Of a stretch of 42,244 bases of DNA, positions 8,785 through 24,031 are shown in pieces. Below the pieces are notes generated by a model. That model had not been told where the DNA came from, did not search any database, and worked only from the letters and a program-made list of their open reading frames with translations. A program made the translations under genes and the position numbers. Source of the DNA: an uncultured Bacteroidales bacterium (lineage in GTDB: Bacteria > Bacteroidota > Bacteroidia > Bacteroidales > Paludibacteraceae); assembly GCA_902799185.1 (NCBI GenBank), contig CADBZO010000016.1, positions 1 through 42,244 of the forward strand. Direction: 5' to 3'. Each line of letters starts with the position of its first letter. The first letter of the stretch is position 1.

Positions 8785-9861
8785 ATGCGTTACTTGATTT
8801 CCGGCGGCGGGACCGGAGGACATATCTTCCCCGCAGTGAGTATAGCGAACGCGCTGAAGGAACTGGATCCGGAGGCGGAGATACTGTTTGTAGGCGCACT
8901 GGGGCGCATGGAGATGGAGCGCGTGCCGCAGGCGGGCTACGAGATCGTCGGCCTGCCCGTACGGGGCTTCAACCGCGCACAGCCGTGGAAGAACATCTCC
9001 GTGCTGTGGGATCTTTTCAAGTCACTCAGGCAGGTGAAGAAGATCATCCGTGATTTCCGTCCGGACGTAGGTGTCGGCGTAGGCGGTTACGCCTCCGGCG
9101 CAGCCATGTGGCAGGCGGCACGGATGGGCATCCCTATCCTGCTCCAGGAGCAGAACGGCTTCGCCGGCGTGACCAACAAGCTCCTCCGTAACAAAGCGGC
9201 GAAGATATGCGTAGCCTACGAAGGCATGGAGCGTTTCTTCCCCGCGGAGAAGATTATCCTGACCGGCAATCCCGTCAGGCAAAACCTGACTAATGTACAA
9301 AGGGACAACGTACAACGTACAAAGGGCAAGCATCTGCTGATTATCGGCGGCAGTCTGGGCGCCCGCACGATTAACGAAGCCGTGGCGGCCGGACTGGAGC
9401 AGCTGAAAGCCTCCGGCATACACGTCGTCTGGCAGACCGGCAAGACTTATTACGACAAATGCCGTGCGGCATGGGAGGCAGCCGGAAAGCCGGAAGCTAT
9501 CGAGTGCCGCGACTTCCTGAGCGACATGCCCGAGCGGTACGCCCAGGCCGATCTCGTCATCTCCCGCGCAGGCGCCAGCTCCATCAGCGAGCTCTGTCTC
9601 CTGGGCAAACCCGCTATCCTGGTACCCTCCCCCAACGTGGCGGAGGACCACCAGACCCACAACGCCATGGCGCTGGTAAACAGAGATGCAGCGGTGCTCG
9701 TCAAAGACTCAGAGGCCTCCGGGAAACTCATTCCTACCGCATTGGAGCTCATCCGTGACGAGCAGCGGTTGGAGAGCCTGCACACCCATATACTGACACT
9801 CGCGCAGAAAGACTCCGCCCGACGCATCGCCGAAGAGGTCATGAAACTGGCTAAACGATGA
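8785..9861 (+). CDS. murG: UDP-GlcNAc:undecaprenyl-PP-MurNAc-pentapeptide GlcNAc transferase
   Basis: 358 residues. MurG makes lipid II from lipid I at the inner face of the membrane. The N-domain has GGGTGGHIFPAVSIA (7-21) and VGVGVGGYASG (95-105). The C-domain has GGSLGARTIN (188-197) and the donor-binding RAGASSISEL to AEDHQTHNA (261-295). Residues 170-180 (NVQRDNVQRTK) come from element A and lie in the linker between the two Rossmann domains, just before the first C-domain strand, where length variation is tolerated. The stop overlaps the next ATG by four bases (ATGA), so translation with the AsmA-like gene is coupled. Other mur/fts genes are absent here, so murG is outside a division cluster in this window. 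Confidence 0.93.
   Translation: MRYLISGGGTGGHIFPAVSIANALKELDPEAEILFVGALGRMEMERVPQAGYEIVGLPVRGFNRAQPWKNISVLWDLFKSLRQVKKIIRDFRPDVGVGVGGYASGAAMWQAARMGIPILLQEQNGFAGVTNKLLRNKAAKICVAYEGMERFFPAEKIILTGNPVRQNLTNVQRDNVQRTKGKHLLIIGGSLGARTINEAVAAGLEQLKASGIHVVWQTGKTYYDKCRAAWEAAGKPEAIECRDFLSDMPERYAQADLVISRAGASSISELCLLGKPAILVPSPNVAEDHQTHNAMALVNRDAAVLVKDSEASGKLIPTALELIRDEQRLESLHTHILTLAQKDSARRIAEEVMKLAKR
9295..9324 (+). repeat. Element A, 30 nt, inside murG
   Basis: Consensus GTACAAAGGGAC then RAYGTACAAYGTACAAAG. Translated here as VQRDNVQRTK. Four other copies in this window have exactly the same length. Confidence 0.85.
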
Positions 9862-11486
9862 CACGGGGCAAGAAAATAGCACTGGTTCTGCTCGCCGTCC
9901 TTCTCGGGGCAGGCGCAGCGGCTTTCATCTCGGCAGACGTACTCCTCTCGCGGTTCGCCCGGCGATGTGTGGACAGTGCGCTCGCAACACTGCCGGAAAC
10001 GTTCGGCTCCGCCTCCTGCGGGACGATACAGATACGTCTGTTCAGCGGCACGGCGGGCATCAGCGACCTGCACTACGAGTACCGCGGCGAACCGTTACAG
10101 CCGCAAGACACACTCCGCCCCGGTGCCTCTGTCACCATTGATCATATCGAGATAGGCAGGCTCTTCTATTCCATGCTGCTGCATAAAGAGCTCGTCGTCA
10201 GCGACCTGTATATCTCCGAGCCGAGGGTGGAACTGTGGTTGGACGAGGAGCACCCGGAGCGCTCATTCCCTGCCCTGCCCAAAGACAGCACGGCGCAGCC
10301 CAAGCCTTTCCCGCTCCGCCAGGCGGTGCTGTGGAACCTCCGTCTCAAAACCGCCTCGCTGGCGCTGCACAGCGTCCGGACGAACCTGGACGTAGCCGCG
10401 GACAGCCTCTCGCTGACGGTCCATGACCTCTCGTACGACACCGCCTTCCATTACTGCGACTCGGTCTATAGCCTCTCGCTGGCGCACGCGGCGGTGCTCA
10501 CGCCGGACAGCAGCATGCGCATCGAGGCAAGGGGACTGGAGCAAGAGAACCAGGGTTCGCTCACTCTGGCGGGCACGCGGATAGCGAACACCATGCCCCG
10601 CAACCGGCTGGCGGAGATGGTACACGAACCCGTCACATGGATAGACATGCGCGTTGGACAAGTCTCCGTCTCTCCGTTCAACCCTGTCCGCAAAGCCCTC
10701 GCCAAAGACCTGACTCTGGATACGGTTACTGCTACGGTGGAGCATATGGAGGTCTATCGCGACGCCCGTTACGCGCCAAAAGAGCCGTTCGCCATGCCGC
10801 AGCAGATACTCATGGCATTGCCGGTGTCCTTCGCGGTCAGCCGTGTGAACGCGCAGCTCAGCAAGATAGACATATCCCTCGCTACCACGGAAAAGAATAT
10901 CGGCCGTCTCTCCCTGCGAAAAATACGCGCTACTGTCACGGACATCTCCAACCGCAAGGGAGCCGTGATGCGCGTGAGCGGCAGCTGCCCCGTTGGGAAA
11001 GGCAAGGCGCAAGCCCGTTTTTCCATGACGATGAACAGCGCCTGCGATTTCTCCGCTTCCCTCCATGCTACGGATATACCCGTCTCGTTCCTCAACCCGC
11101 TCGTCCGGCCGCTGGTGGGCATCACGGCGGACTGCCGCCTTGACACGCTGGATACCGAATACCGGGGCGACAGGAAAGCCGCCAACGGCATCTTCTGCAT
11201 GCAATACAAAGGCCTCCATGTGCAGGTGCACAAAGAAGACGACATTCCCTACAAGGTCATTCAAAAACACGCCAAGACCTTCACCGCGCTGGGTAACTCT
11301 CTGCTTACCAAGAGCAATCCCTCTTCGGTGGATATCTGTCCCAGGGCGTATCACGTCGCCTGGACACGCAACGAGTGGCAACCCTTCCCGCTGTACCTCT
11401 TCGGGCCCTGTATCGACGGCGTGAAGAAGACCTTCCTGCCCGGCCTGTATGTGCATACCCAAGTCAAACATCCGAAAAAGAAATAG
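9858..11486 (+). CDS. AsmA-like membrane-anchored protein
   Basis: 542 residues. One N-terminal membrane segment (about 6-27, KIALVLLAVLLGAGAAAFIS) is followed by a long strand-rich periplasmic part with AsmA/DUF748-like phrases: a first domain with ISDLHYEYRG and IDHIEIGRLFYSML, then ELVVSDLYISEPRVEL. Proteins of this type sit in the inner membrane and are implicated in envelope lipid handling or outer-membrane assembly. The exact role here is unknown. It overlaps murG by ATGA and is followed after three bases by nrnA, so the three genes form one transcription unit. Very GC-rich, with long antisense shadow ORFs that I reject. Confidence 0.7.
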   Translation: MTRGKKIALVLLAVLLGAGAAAFISADVLLSRFARRCVDSALATLPETFGSASCGTIQIRLFSGTAGISDLHYEYRGEPLQPQDTLRPGASVTIDHIEIGRLFYSMLLHKELVVSDLYISEPRVELWLDEEHPERSFPALPKDSTAQPKPFPLRQAVLWNLRLKTASLALHSVRTNLDVAADSLSLTVHDLSYDTAFHYCDSVYSLSLAHAAVLTPDSSMRIEARGLEQENQGSLTLAGTRIANTMPRNRLAEMVHEPVTWIDMRVGQVSVSPFNPVRKALAKDLTLDTVTATVEHMEVYRDARYAPKEPFAMPQQILMALPVSFAVSRVNAQLSKIDISLATTEKNIGRLSLRKIRATVTDISNRKGAVMRVSGSCPVGKGKAQARFSMTMNSACDFSASLHATDIPVSFLNPLVRPLVGITADCRLDTLDTEYRGDRKAANGIFCMQYKGLHVQVHKEDDIPYKVIQKHAKTFTALGNSLLTKSNPSSVDICPRAYHVAWTRNEWQPFPLYLFGPCIDGVKKTFLPGLYVHTQVKHPKKK

Positions 11487-11489
11487 CTT

Positions 11490-12503
11490 ATGCAAAACCT
11501 TATACAATCAGCACAGCACATTGTGATTTTCACCCACATGGCGCCGGACGGCGACGCCATGGGTTCGGCGTTGGCCATGTACCATTACCTGGGCGGCAAC
11601 GCGCAGATTATCGTACCTAACGCTTTTCCGGCTTTCTTCGGTTGGATGCCCGGCGCAGACAAGATACTCGTCTATGAGAATAACACCGAGGTGTGCAACC
11701 CCGTCATTGCGGCAGCCGACCTGATCATCTGCACCGATTTCAACGACCCCAAGCGACTCGGTCCCATAGGCGAGAAACTGCTCGCCAACCCCTGCCCGAA
11801 GATTCTCATCGACCACCATCTCAACCCCATGGATTTCGCTACGGAGGTGTATTCCTATCCGGACGCCACCTCTACCTGCGAGATTATCTACCGGCTTCTC
11901 TACGGAGACCTGCGCGAGACGGACGAACCTCTCACAAAGCTGAATGAGACCATCGCCGCCTGCATCTATACCGGACTCATGACCGATACCGGTAATTTCT
12001 CGTTCAACTCCACGCGGTGCGAACTCTATGAAATCATCGCCGAACTGCTGCGGGCAGGCTTGAAGAAAGACGAGATATACAACGCCGTTTTCAACCAGCA
12101 CACCGCGGACCGCGTGCGCCTCACCGGCTATGCCCTCTACCGCAAAATGCGGCTCTACCCCGAGTACCACCTGGCGCTCATCACGCTCTCGGCGGAGGAA
12201 CTGGAGAGGTACCATTACCAGGTGGGCGACACCGAAGGACTGGTGAACATGCCGCTGCAAATCAGCGATATATACTACTCCGTCTTCATGCGCGAGGAGC
12301 GCCCCAAACCCGGCACACCCAGCTCGCGGATACGTATCTCCTTCCGCTCCCAAGGCGACCGGCCGGTGAACATATGGGCACACGAAATCTTCCACGGCGG
12401 CGGACATGCCAACGCGTCAGGAGGAGAGATATACGGTACGATGGGAAAAGCCGTACGTCTCTTCGAGCAATCGTTTCCTAAATACTTGAAAAAAGAGGAC
12501 TGA
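11490..12503 (+). CDS. nrnA: DHH/DHHA1 bifunctional oligoribonuclease and PAP phosphatase
   Basis: 337 residues. Motif I is HMAPDGDAMGS (16-26), motif II CTDFND (81-86), motif III the signature DHH at 108-110 (ILIDHHLNP), motif IV TGLMTDTGNF. The DHHA1 substrate-binding loop GGGHANASGG is near residue 305. The family degrades 2-5-nt RNA (nanoRNA) and often dephosphorylates 3'-phosphoadenosine 5'-phosphate, with Mn2+. All motifs are intact and no repeat insert is present. Last gene of the murG unit; its stop converges on argS, 14 bases away. Confidence 0.92.
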   Translation: MQNLIQSAQHIVIFTHMAPDGDAMGSALAMYHYLGGNAQIIVPNAFPAFFGWMPGADKILVYENNTEVCNPVIAAADLIICTDFNDPKRLGPIGEKLLANPCPKILIDHHLNPMDFATEVYSYPDATSTCEIIYRLLYGDLRETDEPLTKLNETIAACIYTGLMTDTGNFSFNSTRCELYEIIAELLRAGLKKDEIYNAVFNQHTADRVRLTGYALYRKMRLYPEYHLALITLSAEELERYHYQVGDTEGLVNMPLQISDIYYSVFMREERPKPGTPSSRIRISFRSQGDRPVNIWAHEIFHGGGHANASGGEIYGTMGKAVRLFEQSFPKYLKKED

Positions 12504-12505
12504 GC

Positions 12506-12532
12506 CCCGGGCGGATATCACATCCGCTCGGG
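12506..12532. terminator. Hairpin shared by the nrnA and argS 3' ends
   Basis: Bases 12506-12516 pair with 12522-12532 (11 bp, one G-U) around a 5-nt loop. It includes the last codons of argS, whose MPERM ending is conserved in the family, so part of the symmetry may be coincidence. No T-run. Confidence 0.4.
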
Positions 12533-14407
12533 CATCTCTATTCCTAAAAGCCCCATGGCGCTGCGGAGCACTTTGGCTACATTCTTGGCCAGGAGCAGAC
12601 GCAGTGCTTTTTTGTCGGCGTCGGGCTCGTTGAGGATACTCAGATCGTGGTAGAACGAGTTGAAATCGCACGCCAGGGCATATGCGTAGTTGCAGATCAC
12701 TGCCGGCGAGAACTCCTCGCCTGCCGTCCGTACGGCCTGCGGATATTCCGTCAGACGCTGAATAAGGGTGAGCTCCTTTGGATCCAACACCTCTCTCCCC
12801 ATTGTTCTATGACCGTCCTCTGGACGCTCAATCGGGCAAAGCCCTTCACCCCATTGGGAAACCCCCTCTCCTTGGGATGGGGTGAGGTCCGCTTTCCGCA
12901 GTACGGACCGGATACGGGCGTAGGTATATTGGATGAAAGGACCGGTGTTGCCGTTGAAATCAATGGATTCCGCCGGGTTGAAGAGCATGTTCTTGCGCGG
13001 GTCAACCTTCAGAATGAAATATTTCAGCGCGCCCAGACCTACCTTGCGGGCTATCTCGTTGGCCTCCGCCTCGGTAACGCCCTGCAGTGTGTTCACTTTG
13101 TCCTTGCTGATTTCCTTGGCGTCCTCTATCATCTTGTCCATCAGGTCGTCGGCATCGACTACCGTACCCTCGCGGCTCTTCATCTTGCCGTTAGGCAGCT
13201 CCACCATGCCGTAGCTGAAATGCACGAGCTCCTTGCCGAACGGGAAACCGAGACGGTCTAACAGGATACTCAGCACCTTGAAATGGTACTCCTGCTCGTT
13301 GCCTACCACATAGACCATCTTGTCTATCGGGTAGTCCTGGAAACGCAACTTGGCGGTACCTATATCCTGCGTCATATACACCGACGTACCGTCGGCGCGG
13401 AGCAGCAGTTTCTCGTCCAGTCCGTCTTTCGTCAGGTCAGCCCATACCGAACCGTCCTCACGGCGGTAGAAAGCACCGGAAGCGAGACCTTTCTCCACTT
13501 CGCTCTTGCCCTCCAGATAGGTGTTCGACTCATAGTAAATCTTGTCGAACGAGACGCCCATGCGTTGGTAGGTCTCGTCAAAACCGGCATACACCCAACT
13601 GTTCATCTTCGCCCAGAGAGCGCGTACCTCGGGGTCGTTCGCTTCCCATTTACGGAGCATCTCTTGAGCCTCCTGCATCAGCGGCGCCTCTTTCTTTGCC
13701 GTCTCTTCGTCCTTGCCGGCCGCCGTCAGTTCGGCGATTTGCTTCTTGTATTCCTTGTCGAAACGCACGTAGTAGTCGCCGATGAGGTGGTCGCCTTTCT
13801 TGCCGGACGACTCAGGTGTCTCGCCGTTGCCGAATTTCAGCCAGGCGAGCATGGATTTGCAGATATGGATGCCGCGGTCGTTGACGATGTTCGTCTTCAC
13901 CACCTTCCAGCCGTTCGCCTCCTGGATCTGCGCAATCGAATAGCCTAACAGGTTATTCCGCACGTGACCGAGGTGGAGCGGTTTATTGGTGTTCGGCGAA
14001 CTGTACTCTACCATCATCAGAGGCTGTTCGCCGTTATTTCCGTATCTTACGTAGTTTCCGTATTTTTCGTCAGCGTCGATGCTCTCCAGTTGCTCCACCC
14101 AGAACGAATCGGAGATACTGAGGTTAAGAAAACCCTGCACGGCGTTGTATTTGGAGATGATTCCTTTTGTACATTGTACATTGTCCCCTTGTACATTATT
14201 ACACATCCACTCGCCTATCTCGGCGGCTACCTGAGCCGGAGCCTTACGCGCCGCTTTCACAAAGGGGAACACCACGAGCGTGATGTTGCCCTCGAACTCC
14301 GGACGGGTCTTCTGTAACTGAACCTGTCCGTCCTCGGCGTCAATGCCGTACAACGCCTTCACAGCCGCTTTCGCAAGCGACGATATATGTTGTTCTAAGC
14401 TATTCAT
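12518..14407 (-). CDS. argS: Arginyl-tRNA synthetase with two repeat-derived inserts
   Basis: 629 residues from the ATG at 14407 (MNSLEQHISSLAK). An upstream in-frame extension to 14629 is a shadow of the neighbouring gene. Class I synthetase: HLGH (145-148, in SSPNTNKPLHLGHVRNN) and the KMSK-equivalent KMKSREGT (408-415), with the usual MPERM end. Two segments do not belong to the family. Residues 70-81 (NNVQGDNVQCTK) are element A in the N-terminal additional domain. Residues 507-541 (DLTPSQGEGV to GHRTMGREV) are element B at the start of the anticodon-binding helical domain. Both preserve the frame, and since this is an essential gene the inserts must be tolerated. Third gene of the WalJ-GT2-argS run. 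Confidence 0.93.
   Translation of the reverse strand: MNSLEQHISSLAKAAVKALYGIDAEDGQVQLQKTRPEFEGNITLVVFPFVKAARKAPAQVAAEIGEWMCNNVQGDNVQCTKGIISKYNAVQGFLNLSISDSFWVEQLESIDADEKYGNYVRYGNNGEQPLMMVEYSSPNTNKPLHLGHVRNNLLGYSIAQIQEANGWKVVKTNIVNDRGIHICKSMLAWLKFGNGETPESSGKKGDHLIGDYYVRFDKEYKKQIAELTAAGKDEETAKKEAPLMQEAQEMLRKWEANDPEVRALWAKMNSWVYAGFDETYQRMGVSFDKIYYESNTYLEGKSEVEKGLASGAFYRREDGSVWADLTKDGLDEKLLLRADGTSVYMTQDIGTAKLRFQDYPIDKMVYVVGNEQEYHFKVLSILLDRLGFPFGKELVHFSYGMVELPNGKMKSREGTVVDADDLMDKMIEDAKEISKDKVNTLQGVTEAEANEIARKVGLGALKYFILKVDPRKNMLFNPAESIDFNGNTGPFIQYTYARIRSVLRKADLTPSQGEGVSQWGEGLCPIERPEDGHRTMGREVLDPKELTLIQRLTEYPQAVRTAGEEFSPAVICNYAYALACDFNSFYHDLSILNEPDADKKALRLLLAKNVAKVLRSAMGLLGIEMPERM
12791..12888 (-). 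repeat. Element B inside argS
   Basis: Palindromic core 12811-12818/12822-12829 with a 3-nt loop, flanked on the minus strand by GGGTGAAGGGCT and by ATAGAAC...TGGGGAGAG. The outer part includes a CTCACCCC/GGGGTGAAG pair. Read as GLCPIERPEDGHRTM. Confidence 0.8.
14165..14194 (-). repeat. Element A, 30 nt, inside argS
   Basis: Same 30-nt unit as in murG, read in the same frame as VQGDNVQCTK. Confidence 0.85.
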
Positions 14408-14418
14408 TCTTCGTCTAC

Positions 14419-14476
14419 GTCTTTCTACTTTGAGCGGCTTTGCCGCGGTCTTTCTACTTTGAGCAGCATAGCTGCG
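14419..14476. repeat. Two tandem 29-nt units with covarying hairpins
   Basis: Units at 14419-14447 and 14448-14476 share GTCTTTCTACTTTGAGC and end in a 5-bp hairpin: GCGGC-TTT-GCCGC in the first, GCAGC-ATA-GCTGC in the second. The stem change is compensated on both arms. They fill the gap between the GT2 stop and the argS start. Confidence 0.8.
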
Positions 14477-14478
14477 GT

Positions 14479-15213: not shown

Positions 15214-15220
15214 ATATTAG

Positions 15221-15262
15221 GAATTTCAAATTTCAATTCTCAATTCTCAATTCTCAATTCTC
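15221..15262. repeat. ATTCTCA heptamer array at the WalJ stop
   Basis: Tandem AATTCTC units with two diverged copies. On the minus strand the TGA stop of the WalJ-like gene is part of an AATTGAG unit. Confidence 0.75.
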
Positions 15263-16084: not shown

Positions 16085-16100
16085 ACATCAAAAAATCGTG

Positions 16101-16132
16101 CAAAGTTACGAAAAAATTTTGATATATGCAAA
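16101..16132 (-). promoter_or_regulatory. Promoter of the WalJ-like gene
   Basis: Minus strand: TTTG (16132-16129), 20 nt, TAACTTTG (16108-16101). It overlaps the opposite promoter at 16118-16148. Confidence 0.75.
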
Positions 16133-16148
16133 AAAAATCGTACCTTTG
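16118..16148 (+). promoter_or_regulatory. Promoter of the BadF-type kinase gene
   Basis: TTTG (16118-16121), 19 nt, TACCTTTG (16141-16148). Its -33 box lies inside the spacer of the divergent promoter. Confidence 0.75.
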
Positions 16149-16180
16149 CACCGAAAAAAAAATACCACCAAACAAATCAA

Positions 16181-16225
16181 CAATTCGTAATTCGTAATTT
16201 TTAATTCGTAATTCTCAATTAACAA
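16181..16225. repeat. AATTCGT heptamer array before the kinase gene
   Basis: Units AATTCGT (three), AATTTTT, AATTCTC and AATTAAC follow one another with 7-nt spacing in the 5' leader of the BadF-type gene. Confidence 0.7.
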
Positions 16226-16229
16226 TCAT

Positions 16230-17177
16230 ATGATTCTATTAGCCGACAGCGGAAGTACCAAAGTGCATTGGTGTCTCGTCACTGCGAGCGGTCAATACTC
16301 GGATGTCTTCACCGACGGTATCAACCCGCTTTTCCAGACCACTATTGCGATGCAGAACAGCATCTGTAACCAACTCCTGCCGCAAATAGCGCCGCTCCTC
16401 TGGGCGGGTACGCTGACGCATGTCTTCTTCTACGGAGCGGGGTGTACGCCGGAGAAGAAAGTGTTTGTGCAAAAGGCGCTGGAGGCGGTCTTCAAGAAAG
16501 CCGAAGTGCATGTGGAATCCGACATGCTCGGTGCAGCGCGCGGGCTGCTGGGGCGCTCCGCAGGCGTCGCCTGTATCCTCGGCACGGGTTCCGGCAGCTG
16601 TTTCTACAACGGAGGAAGCATCGAATGGGCGGTACCCTCGCTCGGGTATATACTCGGCGACGAAGGCTCGGCTGCCGTGCTCGGTAAACGGCTCGTTGGC
16701 GACCTGCTCAAAAATCAGCTGGGCGATGACCTCAAGGAGGCGTTCTTCGCCGAATACGAGACCTCCATGGCGGATATCATCGAGAAAGTCTATCGCCAGC
16801 CCTTCCCCAACCGCTTCCTCGCGAAGCTCTCCAAGTTCTGCGCCGACCACCTCGACGACAAACGCATCCGCAACCTCGTCTATGACCATTTCGTCCAGTT
16901 CATCCGCCGCAACCTCGTGCAGTATTTCGAAAAAAATGACCAATCTCAAATGTCAAATGACAAATGTCAAATGTCAAATGACAAATCTCAATTCTCAATT
17001 CTCAATTCTCAATTCTCAAATGGCGTTGGTTTTGTGGGCTCGGTTGCCTACTACTACAAACCGATATTGGAGGAAGCCATGGCGGCGGAAGGTCTCCCGA
17101 TGGGGGCAGTACTCCGGGACCCGATCGAAGGACTCAAAGAGTACCACCAAGACGCGGTCGTTCCCACCACCGAATAA
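16230..17177 (+). CDS. BadF/BadG-family N-acetylglucosamine-kinase-like protein
   Basis: 315 residues. Sugar-kinase/ASKHA fold: phosphate-1 motif LLADSGSTKVHW (3-14), DMLGAARGLLG, the adenosine-side CILGTGSGS (about 113-121) and GDEGSAA. Family members in Bacteroidales phosphorylate amino sugars such as GlcNAc released from the wall. Residues 236-263 (NDQSQMSNDK to NSQFSNG) come from a 7-nt repeat array at 16935-17020 and precede the conserved VGFVGSVAYYYK, where homologues have a short loop. The array does not disturb the reading frame. It has its own promoter and a 7-mer-filled leader. Confidence 0.82.
   Translation: MILLADSGSTKVHWCLVTASGQYSDVFTDGINPLFQTTIAMQNSICNQLLPQIAPLLWAGTLTHVFFYGAGCTPEKKVFVQKALEAVFKKAEVHVESDMLGAARGLLGRSAGVACILGTGSGSCFYNGGSIEWAVPSLGYILGDEGSAAVLGKRLVGDLLKNQLGDDLKEAFFAEYETSMADIIEKVYRQPFPNRFLAKLSKFCADHLDDKRIRNLVYDHFVQFIRRNLVQYFEKNDQSQMSNDKCQMSNDKSQFSILNSQFSNGVGFVGSVAYYYKPILEEAMAAEGLPMGAVLRDPIEGLKEYHQDAVVPTTE
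16935..17020 (+). repeat. In-frame heptamer array inside the kinase gene
   Basis: AAATGTC/AAATGAC units pass into AATTCTC units, about 12 heptamers. Translated as a Ser/Asn/Gln-rich insert. Confidence 0.85.
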
Positions 17178-17217
17178 GGGACAAGTAAGACTAAAGTAAG
17201 GGGTAAGTAAGGGGTTT
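17176..17217. repeat. Short tandem array TAAGGGG/AAGTAAG
   Basis: Irregular 7-nt units begin at the stop of the kinase gene and continue into the gap before the GT2 gene. Confidence 0.6.
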
Positions 17218-17305
17218 ATCGGAGGTATATGCTATCCTACTGCACCCTATATATACTATGTATATATCCCGTGATTTTGAAATACGTTTATTTAGAAATA
17301 TCTGC

Positions 17306-18862
17306 ATGATGGATACTTTTTATCTTCCCGGGCGGGTATGCCCGACGAAAGCTATCCGCGAGATAGCGGCTCAGGCCTCAGCGCCCTATACTTTCATCAG
17401 TCTCAAACCCGGCATCGAGTGGGTCTATCTGGGGCAGGAACGCATGATCCAAGTGATGGAAATGACCGGAGCGACCATGGTCTATGCCGACAGGTTTCAT
17501 AAAGTACAAAGGGACGATGTACAACGTACAAAGGAGGAGGCCGAATGGGTGATTAGCGAAGCACCCGTCATTGACTATCAGGAAGGGGCGCTGCGGGACG
17601 ATTTCGACTTCGGTGCCGTCATGCTCTGGGATACCGACAAACTCAAAGCCCTCGTCGCGCAAATGGACACCGACTACGAGTTCGCCGGTCTCTATGACCT
17701 GAGGCTGAGAGCCACAGACCTCTCTCCCGTCTCCCCTAAGGGGAGAAGCTCCCTCTCCTTGGCGAGTGAAGGGCTCCGCCCGATTGGATGTCCGGTGGAC
17801 ATCCATAGAACCTCTTGGGGTGAGGTGTTAGTCCATATTCCCGAATATCTCTACTACGAGGTGGAGACCGACACCCGCAAGTCCGGCGAGAAACTGTTCG
17901 ACTATGTCGATCCGCGTAACCGGGCGGTGCAGGTGGAGATGGAGGAATGTGTCACGGCGCATCTCAAACGCATTGGTGCGTACCTCGCACCGGGTGAGTA
18001 CAAACCCCTGCCGGAAGCCGGTGACTCCTACCCCGTTACCGCCTCCGTCATTATTCCTTGTAAAAACCGCGCGCGCACAATAGCCGACGCTGTCCGCTCC
18101 GCCCTCTCGCAGCGGGTACGCGCCCCCTATACCTTCAACGTCATCGTCGTCGATGACAACTCCACCGACGGCACCGCAGAGATCCTTAAATACCTCTCCT
18201 TAACCCTCTCCTCAAGAGAGGGAACTCCGGAGTTGATAGTTATTCATCAAGACCCTACCTGGCATGCCATCGGCGGTAACTGGAACGTGGCAATCCACGA
18301 CCCCCGCTGCGGCAAATATGCTATCCAGCTTGACTCCGACGACACCTATTTTGACGAGACCACCGTCCAGAAGTTCATTGATGCTTTCGAAATAGGAAAA
18401 TGTGAAAATGAAAAAATAGGTAAATGTGAAAATGAAAAAATAGGTAAATGTGAAAATGAAAAAATAGGAAAATGCCTCTATGGTATGGTCATTGGCACCT
18501 ACCAACTGACGAACATGGCAGGCGAGATCCTGCCGCCGGGCGTGATTGACCACCGCGAGTGGACGGATAACAACGGACGTAACAACGCCCTCCGTATCAA
18601 CGGTCTGGGCGCTCCGAGAGGCTTCTATGTACCTTTGCTGCGGACTATCAACTACCCCACCACCAAGTACGGCGAAGACTACGCCGTAGGGCTGCGTATC
18701 AGCCGCGACTGGCGTATAGGACGCATCTACGACGTGGTATATAACTGCCGCCGGTGGGAGGACAACTCCGACGCCAACTGCGACATCGTTGCCATGAACC
18801 GCAACAACTGGTACAAAGACCGTCTGCGCACTTGGGAACTACAGGCGCGCCTCCATCAATAA
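17306..18862 (+). CDS. Family 2 glycosyltransferase with four repeat-derived inserts
   Basis: 518 residues from the ATG at 17306 ([17 protein letters not shown]); a start at 17258 is possible but adds an AT-rich tail without resemblance. The second half is a GT2 fold: [30 protein letters not shown] and the metal-binding [10 protein letters not shown]. The first half resembles a second, divergent GT-like domain ([10 protein letters not shown]). Inserts: element A (residues 67-76, [10 protein letters not shown]), element B (about 139-174), a short CTCTC/GAGAG palindrome (about 299-306), and an octamer array read as KIGKCENE repeats (about 362-389). The core motifs survive, so activity is plausible. 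Donor and acceptor are unknown. Confidence 0.8.
17504..17533 (+). repeat. Element A, 30 nt, inside the GT2 gene
   Basis: Read as [10 protein letters not shown], closest of the five copies to the consensus. Confidence 0.85.
17721..17826 (+). repeat. Element B inside the GT2 gene
   Basis: Perfect palindromic core GGATGTCC-GGT-GGACATCC at 17786-17804, preceded by GTGAAGGGCTCCGCCCGAT and followed by ATAGAAC and TTGGGGTGAGG. Read as [18 protein letters not shown]. Confidence 0.85.
18201..18223 (+). repeat. Short CCCTCTC/GAGAGGG palindrome in the GT2 gene
   Basis: CCCTCTC-CTCAA-GAGAGGG, read in frame as TLSSREG between two conserved GT2 strands. Confidence 0.6.
18391..18474 (+). repeat. In-frame octamer array with 24-nt period
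   Basis: Units of the form AAAATGNN, 8 nt each, build a 24-nt period repeated 3.5 times. Because 24 is a multiple of three, copy number changes keep the frame. Translated as repeated KIGKCENE. Confidence 0.85.
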
Positions 18863-18927
18863 TTCGTAATTCGTAATTCGTAATTTGTAATTCGTAATTT
18901 GTAATTCGTAATTCGTAATTCGTAATT
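18861..18927. repeat. AATTCGT heptamer array between GT2 and the SpoIID-like gene
   Basis: Nine contiguous heptamers (AATTCGT and AATTTGT). The array runs into the TTG used as the start of the next gene. Confidence 0.9.
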
Positions 18928-19975
18928 GAATATTCGTATCGGTATATTAACCGCTCCCCAAATTGAGTTCGAGCAGCGGGAACACACGTTCCTGTTAAAG
19001 AACGTGCGAATTGGTATCGGCTTTCACTGGGACAGGCACGAAGACCAGGAGTTTGCCGGTACGCTGGAGATACGCCGCAACCCGGACGGCACCCAAACGG
19101 CTATCAACACCATAGACCTCGAAGACTACCTCTGCTCCGTCATCTCATCGGAGATGAGTGCCAACAGCCCCATGGAGCTGCTCAAAGCGCACGCGGTAAT
19201 CAGCCGCTCCTGGGCGATTCGGGCGATGGAACACCCCAATCATGAAGGTTTTCATGTCTGTGCCGATGACCACTGCCAGCGCTACGAAGGACTGCGACGG
19301 CTCAACGAACGCGCCGTGCAAGCCGTGCGAGCCACTGCCGGACAGGTCTTGACTTATGACGGCAAGATTTGCGACTGCCGTTACCATAAGTGTTGCGGAG
19401 GAAGGACAGAGATCTGGCGCACTTGCTGGGAGGACATCGACGTGCCCTATATCCAATCTGTAGAATGCCCCTACTGCAACCCTGCGTATTTCAATCACCT
19501 CCCCTTGGGGGGAGGAAGGGAGGGGTTATTTTTCCTCAATGACTACGACCAAGAGACCACCGACTTCCACGATTGGCAGGTGACCTACACCGCAGAAGAG
19601 CTAAGCGACATCATCCGTACCAAGTCGGGCATCGACTTCGGTGAGATTACCGATCTTATCCCCTTGCACCGTGGTCCGTCAGGACGCATTGACCAATTGA
19701 AAATAGTCGGCACCAAACACACCGAGGTCATCGGCAAGGAGCTGAAGATCCGTCTCTGGCTCAGCCGCAGCTGCCTCTACAGCAGTTGGTTCGAAGTGGA
19801 GAAAACTCTCAACTCTCAACTCTCAATTTTCAATTTGCACGGTCACGGTTGGGGTCACGGCGCAGGGCTCTGCCAGATAGGTGCCGCCGTCATGGCGGCG
19901 GAAGGACACTCCTACGAAGAGATTCTAAACTACTACTATCCCGGCACCCGACTAAATGAGAAAATGAGAAAATGA
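18926..19975 (+). CDS. SpoIID/LytB-domain protein
   Basis: 349 residues. SpoIID-type lytic enzyme of the cell wall: IDLEDYLCSVISSEMSANSP and LLKAHAVISRSWAIRAM (about 61-98), then CCGGRTEIW, and the C-terminal HGHGWGHGAGLCQIGA (305-320). Family members cleave denuded glycan strands. The start is a TTG at the very end of a 7-mer array, and no ATG is available upstream, so the native start seems to have been overwritten. Two inserts: a CCTCCCC/GGGGAGG palindrome (about 191-202, LPLGGGREGLF) and a heptamer array (about 293-303, LNSQLSIFN) immediately before HGHGWGHG. The stop is in an octamer array shared with the next gene. No signal peptide is visible. Confidence 0.82.
   Translation: MNIRIGILTAPQIEFEQREHTFLLKNVRIGIGFHWDRHEDQEFAGTLEIRRNPDGTQTAINTIDLEDYLCSVISSEMSANSPMELLKAHAVISRSWAIRAMEHPNHEGFHVCADDHCQRYEGLRRLNERAVQAVRATAGQVLTYDGKICDCRYHKCCGGRTEIWRTCWEDIDVPYIQSVECPYCNPAYFNHLPLGGGREGLFFLNDYDQETTDFHDWQVTYTAEELSDIIRTKSGIDFGEITDLIPLHRGPSGRIDQLKIVGTKHTEVIGKELKIRLWLSRSCLYSSWFEVEKTLNSQLSIFNLHGHGWGHGAGLCQIGAAVMAAEGHSYEEILNYYYPGTRLNEKMRK
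19498..19530 (+). repeat. Short CCTCCCC/GGGGAGG element in the SpoIID-like gene
   Basis: CCTCCCCTTGGGGGGAGG followed by AAGGGAGGGG, in frame. Confidence 0.7.
19804..19836 (+). repeat. In-frame AACTCTC heptamers in the SpoIID-like gene
   Basis: Two or three AACTCTC units and diverged AATTTTC copies, directly before the conserved HGHGWGHG codons. Confidence 0.75.
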
Positions 19976-19982
19976 GAAAATG
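19957..19982 (+). repeat. AAAATGAG octamers spanning a stop and a start
   Basis: Three octamers cover the last codons and TGA of the SpoIID-like gene and the ATG of the methyltransferase gene. Confidence 0.8.
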
Positions 19983-21260
19983 GTAAATGACTTAGCATTG
20001 CAGCGCTCTAAATACAAACACCTCTCCGATGAGGAGTGGCGGTGGTTCTTGCAGCAGGTCGAAGGACGCGAACGGACGGCGGACAAACTGCCTACCTTCG
20101 CCGCCATCGACGACTGGTGGTATCCTGTCCGCCTCTCCTGCGAACAATGCTCCTCGGAACTCACCGCACGCTATAAGGCTTCCCTGCTTTCTCCCCTCGC
20201 CTTGGGAGAGGGGAAGGGGGAGAGGTTTCTTGACCTCACCGGCGGCTACGGCGTGGACACGTTCTTCCTGTCCGAGCATTTCGCCCATACGGACTACGTG
20301 GAGCAGAACGCCGAACTATGCCGCATTGCCGCGCATAACTTCGCGCTTAGTCAAAAGTCGAAAGTCGAAAGACAAAAGCTCTCCATTGCAGTTCATAACA
20401 CCACCGCCGAGGATTTCCTGCTCTCCTCCCCCTGTGCGGGTGAAGAGCTCTGCTCGATCGGACTGCCGGTGGCCGTCCGTAGAACTCCCCCCGGGTGGGG
20501 TTTAATCTTCCTCGACCCGGCACGCCGTGACAGCCATGGCGGCAAGGTCTTCAAGTTAGCCGACTGCACGCCCAATGTGGTGGAACTGTTGCCTGCCCTC
20601 TTGGAACGTCTCGCGCCCGACGGGCGGATTATGCTCAAGCTCTCGCCCATGCTTGACATAACCCAAGCCCTCAAGGAACTGTCCTTTGTACATCGTACAT
20701 CGTCCCTTTGTACTTTGTCTTGGTCTGTGCACATAGTAGCCGTCAAGAACGAAGTGAAGGAAGTGCTTTTGATTAGTCGGAATACCGATACATCGGAATC
20801 TCGGGAAACAGCCACGACTATTACCGCCATCGACCTCTCCCGCCCCGAGCAGGCGTTCACCTTCACCCGCGAGGAAGAGAAAGAGGCACTCTGCCCTCCC
20901 CTTGAGGGGGAGTTGGAGGGGGTTTGCTATCTCTTCGAGCCCAATGCTGCTATCCTCAAAGCCGGTGCCTACAAACTCATTGCGCAACGCTTCGGGCTCC
21001 ACAAACTGGACGCAAACACACATCTGTACGTTGCCGACACCCTTGTAGAAAACTTCCCCGGACGCGTCTGGCGCATAAATGACCAAATGGTCAATGCCAA
21101 AATGGTAAATGGACAAATGGCCAATGTTCTCACCCGCAACTACCCGCTGACAGCCGAGCAGTTAAAAAAGAAACTGCGCCTCCGCGACGGAGGCACAGCG
21201 TTTGTCATCGGCTGCCGCGTGGCCGGCAAACCCACTCTTTTCTTAGCCGAACGGCTATAA
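19980..21260 (+). CDS. Class I SAM methyltransferase with THUMP-like domain and six inserts
   Basis: 426 residues. SAM-binding motif I is FLDLTGGYGVDTFFLS (83-98) and the catalytic-side motif is IFLDPARRD (176-184). The C-terminal domain (RNYPLTAEQLKKKLRLRDGG, ending FVIGCRVAGKPTLFLAERL) fits the THUMP-like domain of Bacteroidota RNA methyltransferases. A nucleic-acid substrate is inferred. Inserts: palindrome (67-81), GTCGAAA heptamers (124-134), element B (149-174, ending two residues before IFLDPARR), element A in antisense (235-247), palindrome (300-315), octamers (366-383). Together they make up roughly a quarter of the protein. The start is an ATG at the end of an octamer array. Confidence 0.8.
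   Translation: MVNDLALQRSKYKHLSDEEWRWFLQQVEGRERTADKLPTFAAIDDWWYPVRLSCEQCSSELTARYKASLLSPLALGEGKGERFLDLTGGYGVDTFFLSEHFAHTDYVEQNAELCRIAAHNFALSQKSKVERQKLSIAVHNTTAEDFLLSSPCAGEELCSIGLPVAVRRTPPGWGLIFLDPARRDSHGGKVFKLADCTPNVVELLPALLERLAPDGRIMLKLSPMLDITQALKELSFVHRTSSLCTLSWSVHIVAVKNEVKEVLLISRNTDTSESRETATTITAIDLSRPEQAFTFTREEEKEALCPPLEGELEGVCYLFEPNAAILKAGAYKLIAQRFGLHKLDANTHLYVADTLVENFPGRVWRINDQMVNAKMVNGQMANVLTRNYPLTAEQLKKKLRLRDGGTAFVIGCRVAGKPTLFLAERL
20191..20228 (+). repeat. Short CTCCCCT/GGGAGAGGGG element in the methyltransferase gene
   Basis: Pyrimidine-rich arm then purine-rich arm. Read as SPLALGEGKGERF directly before the SAM motif. Confidence 0.7.
20345..20375 (+). repeat. In-frame GTCGAAA heptamers in the methyltransferase gene
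   Basis: About four units (GTCAAAA, GTCGAAA twice, GACAAAA). Read as SQKSKVERQK. Confidence 0.65.
20421..20502 (+). repeat. Element B inside the methyltransferase gene
   Basis: Core 20459-20467/20471-20479 with GGT loop and one mismatch. Flanks GGGTGAAGAGCTCTGCTCGAT and GTAGAAC match the other copies. Confidence 0.8.
20684..20713 (-). repeat. Element A, 30 nt, antisense in the methyltransferase gene
   Basis: Reverse complement of the consensus. The gene reads it as FVHRTSSLCT rather than [10 protein letters not shown]. Confidence 0.8.
20894..20925 (+). repeat. Short CCCTCCCC/GGGGGAG element in the methyltransferase gene
   Basis: Read as PPLEGELEGV, in frame. Confidence 0.65.
21077..21126 (+). 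repeat. In-frame octamer-like array in the methyltransferase gene
   Basis: Units of the form AAATGGNC/AATGGNAA with about 8-nt spacing. Read as NDQMVNAKMVNGQMAN. Confidence 0.7.
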
Positions 21261-21270
21261 GCCCCGGTCT

Positions 21271-22113
21271 TTATCCTAAGGGATTGAAGATATCCATGCC
21301 GAAGGCAGACGTGAACGCGTCTGCTTTTTTTAGTGCCTCGGCGGTGTCGAGCTGCACGCCTCCGTCATGAGGGGACATCAGCAGAATGCGGTCGGAAAGG
21401 GCAAGCGCGAGGTCCAGTTCGTGGGTAGAGATGAGAATAGTCTTTCCCTGCTCGTGCGCTAATCGGCGCAGGAGCCGCAGCACCAATATACGGTGCGGGA
21501 GGTCCAGATGCGCCGTAGGTTCGTCCAGTAATATGATAGGCGTCTGCTGCGCTAATGCCTTGGCAATCAGGATACGCTGTTTCTCTCCGTCCGAATGACT
21601 ATTAAAAAACCTCTCCCCAATTTGTTCTACGGGCTGCCACCGGCAGTCCGATCGAGCGGAGCTCTTCACCCGCTCAAGGGAGGAGGTTAGGAAGCCCACT
21701 TGCTGCAGCGACTCTTCGATGATCCGCTCGTCCTCTTCCGTCAGACCGCCGAGGAACGAGGTATAGGGGTACCGCCCCATCGCCACCACGTCGTGCACCG
21801 TCGTGTTCTCCAGCGAGAGCCGCTCCGTCAGGACCAAAGCGATGGATTTGTTCGCATTGGATGTGTAATCCGTAATCCGTAATTCGTAATTAATCTCTCC
21901 CCCTATCGGCGGTTGCAGCCCTGCGAGGGTACGGAGGAGTGTTGATTTGCCGCAACCGTTGGGACCTAACATACAGACCATCTCACCCTCATAGAGCGAG
22001 AAAGTCAAATCGGCCTGCACGATCTTTCGACAGGCTCTGTCCCGTTTTGACTTTCGACTTCCATCGGCATACCCGATCGTTAAGTTATTCGTAGAAATAG
22101 AGACGTTGGACAC
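21271..22113 (-). CDS. ABC transporter ATP-binding protein, FecE-like
   Basis: 280 residues from a GTG at 22113, overlapping the 3' end of the MurF-Alr gene by 29 bases. Walker A GPNGCGKST (50-58), signature SDGEKQR (174-180, in place of LSGGQ), Walker B IILLDEPTAHLD (193-204), H-loop STHELD (229-234). Order and size fit the iron-siderophore or cobalamin uptake class (FecE/BtuD/FepC). No permease or binding protein lies next to it. Three insertions: GTCGAAA-type (18-26), AATTCGT-type (74-86) and element B (about 144-167), which ends seven residues before the signature motif. The first signature residue is His where Leu is usual. Activity is possible but not certain. Confidence 0.8.
   Translation of the reverse strand: MSNVSISTNNLTIGYADGSRKSKRDRACRKIVQADLTFSLYEGEMVCMLGPNGCGKSTLLRTLAGLQPPIGGEINYELRITDYTSNANKSIALVLTERLSLENTTVHDVVAMGRYPYTSFLGGLTEEDERIIEESLQQVGFLTSSLERVKSSARSDCRWQPVEQIGERFFNSHSDGEKQRILIAKALAQQTPIILLDEPTAHLDLPHRILVLRLLRRLAHEQGKTILISTHELDLALALSDRILLMSPHDGGVQLDTAEALKKADAFTSAFGMDIFNPLG
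21610..21690 (-). repeat. Element B inside the ABC ATPase gene
   Basis: Core 21630-21638/21642-21650 with a 3-nt loop; flanks GGGTGAAGAGCTCCGCTCGAT and GTAGAAC on the minus strand. Read in a different frame from the other three copies (VKSSARSDCRWQPVEQIGER). Confidence 0.8.
21864..21893 (-). repeat. In-frame AATTCGT/AATCCGT heptamers in the ABC ATPase gene
   Basis: Four units, read as INYELRITDYTS between the Walker A region and the Q-loop. Confidence 0.7.
22042..22062 (-). repeat. In-frame GTCGAAA-type repeat in the ABC ATPase gene
   Basis: About three 7-nt units (GGAAGTC, GAAAGTC, AAAACGG), read as GSRKSKRDR near the N-terminus. Confidence 0.5.
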
Positions 22114-23986
22114 GGCGTGAAACGGAGGTTAGTATTTCATATGTGATAGTACCGAGTTTGTCGGCGAGTTCCTCTAACGGCATATGTTCGCCGAACACCT
22201 CCACGGGGTCTCCGGGCCGTGCGTCGGTGCCGGTGACATCGACCATTGCCTGGTCCATGCACACGTTGCCCACGACAGGACACCGTTTGCCGCGGATATA
22301 GACTTCGCCGCCGTAGTTGGAGAAACGCCTGTCGAAGCCGTCGGCGTAGCCGATAGGGATGACAGCTATCACGCGGTCCTCGTCCAGCTTCGTATGACGC
22401 CCATAACCGATGGTCTCACCGGCTTTGACGGTCTTGACGGAGAGGATAGTGGTCTCCAGCGTACAGACATTACGCAGTTTCGCTCCGTTGAACGAGAAGC
22501 CGTATAGTCCTATACCCAGCCGGCACATGTCAAACTGGTAGTCCGTGAACCGCTCTATACCGGCGGAGTTGAGGATGTGCTTGAGCACCTCTCCCCGACC
22601 CTCTCCCAAGGAGAGGGAGGCTTTCAGTTTCTCGGCGCAGCGGTCGAAATACTTTATTTGCTGAAGGGTGAACTCGTCAAACTGCGGTTCGTCGCTGCCT
22701 GCGAGGTGAGAGAAGACGGAGCGCACCGAGACGGCTTTCTGGTGGTTCAGACGGTCGATGAGCCACGGCAGGTCTTCCTCATAGAAGCCCAGCCGGTGCA
22801 TGCCGGAGTCAATCTTTATATGAATAGGATAGTACTCCAGCCCCTTCGCCTCCGCTGCCGCAATGACGGTCTTGAGCGATTGGCGGGAATAGACATTTGG
22901 CTCCAGGTTGTTCTCTAAGATCAGGTCCATTGCCGCCACCTCGGGGTCCATAATGATAATCGGCAGTGTGATGCCCGCCTTGCGCAGTTCCACCCCCTCG
23001 TCCGCTACCGCTACCGCGAGGTAATCAACCAAACCGCTCTTTTGCAAGGCTTTGCTCACCTCCACGCTTCCTGCGCCGTAGGCAAAGGCTTTAACCATAC
23101 AGGTCAGCTTGGTCTCCGGTTTGAGCAGCGAGCGGAAGTAACGCACATTGTCCACCAGAGCACTCAGGTTCACTTTGAGTACCGTCTCGTGGGTCTGATG
23201 CAGAATCCGTTCGGTGATGGTCTCCTCGTCATAGCCCAGCGCCCGCATCACCGCCGCACACGTCCGTACGTTCTGGTGGGTCGGGTCTTCGATGACCTGC
23301 TCGGAGTGTACGAAGAGTTTCATCTTCTCTTCACGTTTCTGCTCCAGCGAGGCGAAGTTCTCGTCGTGCTCGTGTCCGATATAGGTAATGACGCCTATCG
23401 TAGGTTGGATGATCCGCTCCAGTTTCTCCATCTCACCAGGCTGCGAGATACCCGCCTCGAAGATAGCCAATAAACCTCTCCCCGTCCCTCTCTCCGAGAG
23501 AGGGTGTTCCTCCTCTTTTGGGGAGGTTAGGTATGGTTCCAGCCCCCAAACGCTCAGCGGCACACCAATCTGGGAGTTATAGGACTTAGGAGAACGGACC
23601 ACCGTGTAATCGTCTTTCAGCAACTGATACAGCCATTCCTTGACCACGGTCTTGCCGTTGGAACCGGTGATGCCGATGACCGTGCCGTGGAACTGCGAGC
23701 GCACATATGCCGCCAATGCCTGCAGCGCCGCTACGGCATCGCCCGTGACAAAAGCCCGCACGCCTTTCTCACGCAACTCGGGGATATATTTTGCTCCGTC
23801 GTTCTTCTCTGTCCTAATGGCAAAGAAAAGTGTCTCAGCGGCCTTCGTACAACGTACGTCGTCCTTCTGTACTTGAAGTTCCCTGCTATCCGTCAGCAGA
23901 TGACGGATCTCCAGTTCGTCCTCGCCCTCGACCGTTGCGAGGGCCCCTATAGCTTGTCTTATTTCCGATAGTTTCATATGCTCCAA
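22085..23986 (-). CDS. alr: MurF-Alr fusion with the MurF C-terminal part missing
   Basis: 633 residues. In Bacteroidota the fused protein is about 820 residues: a MurF-like ligase (about 430) plus an alanine racemase (about 370). Here the Alr half is complete: PLP lysine K299 in MVKAFAYGAG, substrate side IDSGMHRLGF, and the catalytic-tyrosine region TIGYGRHTKL. The MurF half has its P-loop GITGSNGKT (105-113) and NSQIGVPLS, but after ALGYDEETITERIL (249-262) the frame passes straight to THETVLKVNLSALVDN, the first Alr strand. About 190 residues, the C-terminal ligation domain, are absent. Inserts: element A (39-48) and two palindromes (about 154-171 and 460-470). D-Ala synthesis should work; ligation is doubtful. 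An alternative start is the ATG at 23977. Confidence 0.88.
   Translation of the reverse strand: MEHMKLSEIRQAIGALATVEGEDELEIRHLLTDSRELQVQKDDVRCTKAAETLFFAIRTEKNDGAKYIPELREKGVRAFVTGDAVAALQALAAYVRSQFHGTVIGITGSNGKTVVKEWLYQLLKDDYTVVRSPKSYNSQIGVPLSVWGLEPYLTSPKEEEHPLSERGTGRGLLAIFEAGISQPGEMEKLERIIQPTIGVITYIGHEHDENFASLEQKREEKMKLFVHSEQVIEDPTHQNVRTCAAVMRALGYDEETITERILHQTHETVLKVNLSALVDNVRYFRSLLKPETKLTCMVKAFAYGAGSVEVSKALQKSGLVDYLAVAVADEGVELRKAGITLPIIIMDPEVAAMDLILENNLEPNVYSRQSLKTVIAAAEAKGLEYYPIHIKIDSGMHRLGFYEEDLPWLIDRLNHQKAVSVRSVFSHLAGSDEPQFDEFTLQQIKYFDRCAEKLKASLSLGEGRGEVLKHILNSAGIERFTDYQFDMCRLGIGLYGFSFNGAKLRNVCTLETTILSVKTVKAGETIGYGRHTKLDEDRVIAVIPIGYADGFDRRFSNYGGEVYIRGKRCPVVGNVCMDQAMVDVTGTDARPGDPVEVFGEHMPLEELADKLGTITYEILTSVSRRVQRLYFYE
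22588..22621 (-). repeat. Short CTCCC/GGGAG element in the Alr half
   Basis: Read as KASLSLGEGRGEV, in frame. Confidence 0.65.
23474..23530 (-). repeat. CTCTCC/GGAGAG element in the MurF half
   Basis: Two palindromic segments, read as SPKEEEHPLSERGTGRGL, in frame, in a surface position between PYLT and LAIFEAGIS. Confidence 0.65.
23843..23872 (-). repeat. Element A, 30 nt, inside murF-alr
   Basis: Read as VQKDDVRCTK in the same frame as the murG, argS and GT2 copies. The most diverged copy. Confidence 0.8.
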
Positions 23987-23999
23987 ACCTTTGCGAGTG

Positions 24000-24031
24000 C
24001 AAAGGTACTACTTTTTTCGCATATATGCAAA
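24000..24031 (-). promoter_or_regulatory. Promoter of the murF-alr gene
   Basis: Minus strand: TTTG (24031-24028), 20 nt, TACCTTTG (24007-24000). The expected transcription start is about 8 nt before the ATG at 23986 and 17 nt before the ATG at 23977. Confidence 0.8.

Follow-up and report, generated by a model that had tools for sequence, protein, structure and literature searches.

The window analysed here, a 42,244-nt stretch of DNA from an uncultured Bacteroidales bacterium (Paludibacteraceae; contig CADBZO010000016.1), holds five copies of a 30-nt element inside murG, argS, a GT2 glycosyltransferase gene, a methyltransferase gene and murF-alr. The decapeptide encoded by the element is probably the translation of a short, non-autonomous dispersed repeat that has been copied anew since the species of the genus split, with host repair as the proposed means of copying and selection sorting the survivors. 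Copying of the DNA, species-specific copy number (0 to 82), presence or absence between species, sorting by strand and frame, and mixed fillings of the same loops are directly supported. The 30-nt unit does not stand alone: many short repeat families, often with a 7-nt period, occupy similar loops.

Anatomy of the element

The original prediction, made from the letters of the window alone, placed five copies of exactly 30 nt in these genes, four of them sense in one frame and one antisense. All five were found at exactly those positions (Table 1). A search with a degenerate consensus (≤3 mismatches) returned them and no sixth copy, while each of 100 dinucleotide-preserving shuffles of the window returned none. 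The orientation of the host genes and the translations bear out the strands: the copies at 9295, 14165, 17504 and 23843 share one sense frame, V-Q-x-D-x-V-x-x-T-K.

The architecture of the element is GTACAAAG-GGACAAT-GTACAAT-GTACAAAG, with segments of 8+7+7+8 nt. It is a small array of four heptamer-like units resembling GTACAAT, the first and the last of which are followed by one extra base. The length of exactly 30 nt holds for the five copies as listed; when 81 genomic copies were aligned by this core, the conserved block ran slightly beyond it, to about 30–34 nt. The second base 5´ of the core is A in 80 of the 81 copies, the last base 5´ of the core is T in 56 and the base directly 3´ of it is G in 57. 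These conserved flanking bases are similar in non-genic copies.

Table 1. Element copies and other in-frame repeats located in the window
Feature	Position	Strand	Reading or remark	Basis
Copy 1, sense, murG	9295..9324	+	VQRDNVQRTK; inter-domain linker after TGNPVRQNLTN	sequence matches
Copy 2, sense, argS	14165..14194	-	VQGDNVQCTK	sequence matches; ArgS domains
Copy 3, sense, GT2 glycosyltransferase gene	17504..17533	+		sequence matches; domain search
Copy 4, antisense, THUMP-like methyltransferase gene	20684..20713	-	SFVHRTSSLCT	sequence matches; domain search
Copy 5, sense, murF-alr	23843..23872	-	VQKDDVRCTK	sequence matches; domain search
In-frame period-7 array AAATGTC / AATTCTC, gene 16230-17177	16934..17022	+	NDKCQMSNDKSQFSILNSQFS	
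In-frame 24-nt array, GT2 gene	18390..18474	+	GKCENEKI	G063 has the 30-nt element there
In-frame period-7 array AACTCTC, SpoIID-like gene	19801..19836	+		array search; domain match
Methyltransferase insert 1, CTCTCC/GGAGAG-like (family by eye)	20184..20228	+	LLSPLALGEGKGERF	
Methyltransferase insert 2, period-7 AAAGTCG array	20347..20378	+	QKSKVERQK	
Methyltransferase insert 3, dispersed element	20418..20501	+	CAGEELCSIGLPVAVRRTPPGW; inverted copy 21624-21680	
In-frame period-7 array GTAATCC, ABC-transporter gene	21860..21892	-		
In-frame period-7 array GATTTGA, gene 24591-25703	24995..25022	+	IGDLRFEISN	

Copy number and taxonomic range

Further copies in the genome, proposed as a check of the prediction, are plentiful. 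The genome to which the window belongs (G000; a 2.43-Mb draft in 55 contigs, 87% complete) carries 82, with 46 forward and 36 reverse, and a reversed-pattern control found none; 81 of the 82 were kept as distinct contexts for the later counts. In a sample of 149 relatives, the element is present (at least one copy) in 49 of 90 congeners and in none of the 59 other genomes of the order. Elsewhere in the phylum, 394 genomes were searched, one of which also belonged to the first sample, and none has it. Copy number differs widely between species: G000 has 82, G063 69, G087 28 and G046 26 copies, and 41 of the 90 congeners have none. A phage vehicle was considered and rejected, as viral contigs gave no exact match to the degenerate pattern.

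The nearest named records are metagenome-assembled genomes of Paludibacteraceae or Bacteroidales, for the most part of rumen and gut origin. Shared decapeptides at matching sites in distant genera would have spoken against a mobile unit; a decapeptide of this form is encoded in none of 80 named loci around murG homologues, and the 55 more distant of these have ordinary linkers, mostly longer.

Copying at the DNA level

Across the 81 copies, conservation fades almost to background by about the third base on each side of the core. A weak residual signal (0.18–0.33 bits), 11 to 14 bases upstream, is put down to tandem copies and shared C-terminal modules. In the 46 sense copies of the main frame (frame 0), the mean information at codon positions 1, 2 and 3 is 1.55, 1.69 and 1.67 bits. 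Because third codon positions are as conserved as the other two, the DNA has been copied and the peptide has not been reinvented; dispersal is by copying of DNA.

The prediction had argued for a mobile or copied unit rather than independent drift of low-complexity sequence, and the fixed silent positions and the drop of the flanks outside the block agree with it. Independent drift is rejected for the 30-nt family by the identity at all codon positions together with the flank profile. It is also very unlikely that each decapeptide arose locally, by 7-nt slippage of low-complexity loop DNA without copying between places. In favour of such an origin, period-7 arrays of many sequences abound in the genome, and among the long classes of repeats the 7-nt one was the commonest in most genomes surveyed by Mrazek (2007), as cited in PMC4679880. 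Slippage, however, does not yield one 30-nt sequence 82 times; the irregular 8+7+7+8 structure recurs in unrelated contexts, with flanks near background outside the block and third codon positions equally conserved. Local origin is strongly disfavoured for the 30-nt family, whereas for the other arrays it is not.

Sorting by strand and frame

With genes called by open frame and codon score, not annotation, 62 of the 81 copies are genic (51 sense and 11 antisense). The other 19 are non-genic or unclear, and 7 of them lie in frames of middling score (12–24) and may be genic. Sense copies occupy the three frames as 46/0/5 (chi-square against uniform, 5e-17), with 15/1/2 in G063 and 12/0/0 in G087, and antisense copies as 6/0/5. 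None of the six consensus frames contains a stop. The three sense frames, read from the purine-rich strand, are polar (mean hydropathy -1.22, -1.11 and -0.94) and the three antisense frames hydrophobic (1.77, 1.77 and 1.66).

Sense copies are read as a polar linker, such as VQRDNVQCTK. Antisense copies tend to lie near the start of the protein: 7 of 11 are within 35 residues of it, against 0 of 51 sense copies (Fisher, 7e-7). Judged by their sequence, these seven look like the core of signal peptides or lipoprotein signals. One putative signal peptide with an antisense copy reads MRRYSFI[LCTLYIVTLSF]LTAC; a second begins MKRILFI and continues with an 11-residue insert and then WADE (both by eye). 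The minor sense frame is found near the other end, with 4 of its 5 copies within 30 residues of the C-terminus, compared with 0 of 46 in the main frame. These four have a KILRDGKLYI-like module in common and may represent one event multiplied. The motif around the C-terminal copies is reminiscent of a type 9 secretion system (T9SS) sorting tail, but 0 of 10 such proteins matched an NCBIfam sorting-tail model; one of the ten gave a partial match, far below cut-off, to a model of a T9SS-dependent M6 protease.

A preference for RAT|G-like sites could by itself place 23–28 of the 51 sense copies in frame 0. As 46 are observed, site preference explains only part of the frame bias and is rejected as its whole cause; selection or something else therefore contributes. 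The notion of a unit filtered by the reading frame holds, but the filter is wider than one frame, because antisense copies fill N-terminal signal-like sequences and the second sense frame fills C-terminal ends.

Host proteins and insertion sites

Out of the 62 genic copies, the search for host families covered 20 sense ones, 7 antisense ones and 3 near the C-terminus. Only 1 of the 20 sense hosts lacked a Pfam match, as did 3 of the 10 others. Sense hosts among the 20 include a Mur ligase, RibD, SAM synthetase, a class II (D/K/N) tRNA synthetase, the phenylalanyl-tRNA synthetase beta chain, PriA and a formyltransferase. MurG, ArgS and MurF-Alr are sense hosts in the window, and RsgA and IleRS were named by eye from conserved sequence. 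Antisense hosts include AroB, a SusD-like protein, GH66 and an M15 peptidase.

The original prediction had the sites fall where the families have short linkers or loops; the murG copy lies at the inter-domain linker. In a structure model of MurG (mean pLDDT 89.5), the insert (residues 171–180) is predicted to be mostly coil and is the lowest block (pLDDT 62). A solved MurG (3s2u) aligns across the insert site in one alignment.

Occupied and empty sites between species

Host genes for the comparison with congeners were picked because G000 carries the element there, and for each search the best 30 loci from 91 genomes were aligned. The comparisons took in murG, RsgA, IleRS, murF-alr, the methyltransferase and a signal-peptide gene. 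In loop 2 of RsgA, congeners have sequences such as FSEMYFLPDGAIIDT and G000 has FSEMYELDVQGDNVPCTKGWLIDT. In the MurF-Alr loop, many congeners resemble SRQLGAEPEKTLFFAI as compared with SRELQVQKDDVRCTKAAETLFFAI; the element is found in G000 and the distant G046 only, among the 30 aligned rows. At the site of methyltransferase copy 4, the sister species G063 has a similar antisense reading (SLVQRTSVLRT), and in most of the remaining congener rows the loop is short (SQVNWD, for example).

Empty sites in relatives had been proposed as a further check, and they occur in both directions. Two genes of the window are empty in G000 and filled in a congener: in one, the element of G087 stands at the place of NQLGDDLKEAFF in G000, and in the SpoIID-like gene the element of G063 stands at the place of GQVLTYDGKICDC in G000. 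To this were added comparisons of 28 of the 69 copies of G063 (around 26 listed places) and 15 of the 28 copies of G087. Fourteen of these copies could be aligned to G000 on both flanks, the alignments being read by eye. Five are present in both species and seven are absent from G000, where four sites are empty or short and three hold another repeat; the remaining two are a possibly decayed shared copy and a spurious case. In the wider count, 7 of 28 G063 copies and 2 of 15 G087 copies scored as shared with G000, of which 5 and 1 are firm; the two discounted G063 shares (L335) are short hits to similar C-terminal ends, and the discounted G087 share (L358) is a repeat-array hit. A flank without a copy was found for 9 G063 and 6 G087 copies, a class that takes in short or partial similarity; the firm differing pairs are the seven given above. 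An equal-length G000 sequence (L030) resembles, by eye, a decayed copy at the place of the G087 element (L364).

In a signal-peptide gene, the region measures 30 residues with the element and 28 to 30 without it in most rows; given such near-equal lengths, replacement is possible besides insertion. The antisense copy of this gene is also found in congeners G087 and G069, either inherited or regained. On a five-gene tree of 36 species, occupied states are scattered.

It is extremely unlikely that the element is an artefact of assembly or binning. The nearest named records are indeed metagenome-assembled, but separate genomes of 49 congener species carry the element, the frames stay open, and some sites are common to species whose flanks have diverged. 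A useful linker or binding tag spread by positive selection is a reading that we regard as highly improbable. The strong preference for one sense frame (46/51) and the occupation of the same murF-alr loop in the distant G000 and G046 would fit it. However, congeners fill the same loops with unrelated peptides and many loops are short and empty; moreover, the host proteins share no common function and 19 of the 81 copies are non-genic or unclear.

Other repeat families in the same loops

Loops that hold the element in one species can hold a different repeat in another. The 24-nt array in the GT2 gene of G000 has the element as its counterpart in G063; of two other genes, one has the element in G087 against a CTCTCC/GGAGAG repeat in G000, and the other has it in G063 against a period-7 array in G000. 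Different families were found at one loop across species in MurG, RsgA, IleRS and the methyltransferase. Some species use a repeat word of their own more than once: in G026, a species not picked for this, MurG and IleRS alike contain GGACAAT arrays, and in G041 each of the two RsgA loops contains a VESQKSKVES-type array. G063, for all its 69 copies, carries other sequences in the loops read there. Period-7 DNA occupies the MurG linker in 10 of 30 congener rows and each of two RsgA loops in 7 of 30, against 0.8–1.7% in control stretches of the same genes. In the surroundings of murG, the 25 closest named loci have 18.2 period-7 arrays per 100 kb, and the remaining 55 have 1.6. The IleRS loop, which holds the 30-nt element in G000, shows period-11 arrays in 11 of 30 rows (e.g. 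L246, L256 and L264; control 0.000), and these constitute a second repeat class with another period.

The methyltransferase gene (19980-21257) accumulates four different in-frame inserts, namely a CTCTCC-like sequence, an AAAGTCG array, an CSIGLPVAVRRTP element and the antisense GTACAA element, and at each of them the congener loops are short or otherwise filled. A second dispersed coding element was noticed as a 57-nt inverted pair of 91% identity (20429-20485 and 21624-21680). Methyltransferase residues near 146-178 have matches at 8 additional G000 places and at many places of several congeners; some of these matches contain stops. In murF-alr, the CTCTCC/GGAGAG inverted repeats at 22589-22617 and 23468-23500 are perhaps further in-frame inserts of that family.

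Arrays were surveyed in 342 kb of the genome, made up of the window and 15 stretches picked by hand. These 15 stretches hold 0 of the 82 copies, and the period-7 arrays outside the window therefore belong to other families. With a strict threshold, period-7 arrays reach 17.5 per 100 kb, compared with 0 to 0.3 for periods 4, 5, 6 and 8; lags 9, 11 and 12 give 1.2, 3.8 and 1.2, and the multiples 14 and 21 give 11.4 and 4.4. A looser threshold yields 39 genic and 44 intergenic period-7 arrays at a coding density of 0.85; the genic/intergenic counts are 5/2 for lag 6, 3/1 for lag 8, 10/7 for lag 9, 4/14 for lag 11 and 18/1 for lag 12. The genic period-7 arrays read as linkers (KVKSQKSKA), hydrophobic N-termini (LVLSPFTFHLSPLF) and tails.

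Origin and mechanism of spread

In the favoured reading, copying by host repair, repair or replication would switch template briefly to one of the many repeats and then back, as a short-homology templated insertion, and the arrays themselves would be enlarged by 7-nt slippage. Purifying selection would purge most insertions, and in-frame ones in loops, signal sequences and tails would remain. Tolerant loops are filled and later refilled, since the loops in question are taken up by different short repeat families in other species. A dedicated enzyme would not be needed.

The main competitor, which we consider unlikely, is an enzyme acting in trans on the unit, such as a REP-type Y1 transposase, a transposase of insertion sequences with short ends or a novel type of integrase. 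The discrete length and the conserved flank, above all the A two bases before the core and its similarity in non-genic copies, would fit such an enzyme, and small bacterial mobile repeats are regarded as non-autonomous units moved in this way (PMC2229807). Against it, the 81 copies show no consistent excess of 3–8 nt flank matches over mismatched pairs, and hence no target-site duplication. The hairpin is weak, with 5–6 bp only (DNA folds of two consensus forms at -3.5 and -2.3 kcal/mol, z -2.2 and -1.1). Copy number does not correlate with the counts of Y1_Tnp (rho 0.09, p 0.39; matches in 26 of 91 draft genomes) or RVT_1 (rho 0.05, p 0.67; likewise in drafts). Copy-rich G063 and G087 have no Y1_Tnp match and G000 has one marginal match (24.1 bits). 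Unrelated families in the same loops also speak against one specific enzyme. Templated copying by host repair is favoured because neither count tracks the copies and there is no target duplication.

Several points weigh against this favoured reading. The copying step has been deduced rather than seen directly, and a set of seven differing pairs is too small for proof of short homology at the junctions. Host genes entered the comparison for carrying the element in G000, and the IleRS and MurF-Alr loops are not enriched for period-7 DNA (1/30 each). Since the genomes are drafts, a mobilising enzyme could have been missed. The copies are not all independent: four of the five minor-frame copies lie in the one C-terminal module, and about 7 of the 46 frame-0 copies stand directly upstream of a similar C-terminal module. 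Finally, frame 0 is favoured beyond what polarity would require, as frame 1 is nearly as polar and holds 0 of 51 copies.

A standing exchange of loops has also been considered. In the genus, a dedicated or domesticated copying mechanism would time and again overwrite one short loop repeat with another from a species-specific repertoire, and linkers, signal peptides and tails of housekeeping proteins would be rewritten without pause from a common pool readable in both directions. We regard this as decidedly improbable.

Comparison with known repeat systems

The original prediction likened the element to the Rickettsia palindromic elements (RPEs), reportedly described by Ogata et al. in 2000. 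The likeness stands for the way of working but not for membership. In published accounts (PMC2229807, PMC3767692, PMC10969869), RPEs are dispersed and lie in frame in ordinary genes, some at solvent-exposed places, and Rickettsia orthologues can carry different RPE groups at or near one place. For such places, the authors of PMC3767692 considered both hotspots and divergence after a single insertion, and preferred divergence without dismissing hotspots. In-frame insertion into protein-coding genes is shared by the 30-nt element, as 62 of 81 copies lie in predicted open-frame genes. However, RPEs measure about 100–150 bp, form palindromic stem-loops with terminal inverted repeats and reside in Rickettsiales, whereas the present unit is far smaller, heptamer-built, not palindromic, free of any stable hairpin and found in Bacteroidales. 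Unlike RPEs, it uses several frames, and unrelated families share one loop across species. Because the families at one loop are unrelated in sequence, repeated insertion or replacement is favoured here over divergence.

The small dispersed repeats of cyanobacteria (Elhai et al. 2008) are reportedly mobile-looking and a few tens of bases long, and resemble the present unit in these respects; they are not known as an in-frame coding phenomenon. Cyanobacteria also possess heptanucleotide tandem repeats, the STRR. The TAACTGA repeats of Beggiatoaceae are mostly intergenic, with intragenic ones mostly at protein ends, and heptamer repeats of bacteria, including some Bacteroidetes, are described as mainly intergenic (PMC4679880). 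The 7-nt period, the many loci per genome and the presence of some repeats in open frames are features in common with the 8+7+7+8 core. By contrast, most copies here are genic, arrays frequently lie within conserved proteins and many different heptamers occur side by side.

REPs are palindromic, extragenic, short, present in many copies per genome and associated with RAYT transposases, according to PMC3116915. The element resembles REP/REPIN–RAYT systems in shortness and copy number, and differs in its genic location and in having no link to Y1_Tnp counts. Nor do its 81 copies show the direct duplication of miniature inverted-repeat transposable elements with target-site duplication. YPAL of Yersinia (168 bp) is in some instances fused in frame with a signal-peptide motif, and a single locus is discussed (PMC2229807). 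Both are miniature elements that supply part of a predicted signal peptide; unlike YPAL, the 30-nt unit has seven N-terminal antisense copies in one genome.

A literature search on titles and the openings of abstracts recognised no in-frame repeats in this genus, which is weak evidence of novelty. The novelty lies in the combination: the units are tiny and built of heptamers, they are read in both directions, and different families occur at the same loops of housekeeping proteins.

Further observations in the window

The murF-alr frame (22085-23986) matches only part of the Mur ligase middle domain, followed by both alanine racemase domains, and its MurF half looks shortened on the domain matches; a separate, weaker Mur ligase match lies elsewhere in G000 (C7:77956-78480). 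AT-rich repeats with GCAAAGGTAC-like sequence are located at 5892-5935, 7277-7320, 16098-16141 and 23997-24040, and are presumably Bacteroidetes promoter-like sequence. AGCAGTACCTTTG occurs at 11 sites in the 342 kb. Two very long adjoining genes (32558-42066) contain many diverged internal DNA repeats, which are probably repeated extracellular modules.

Biological meaning

The element and its companions amount to a natural experiment on insertion tolerance, in many ordinary proteins and many species together. One DNA word serves as a linker, a signal-like sequence or a tail, depending on strand and frame. For annotators, there is a warning in this: a loop that varies among these genomes may be a copied repeat and not evolved sequence.

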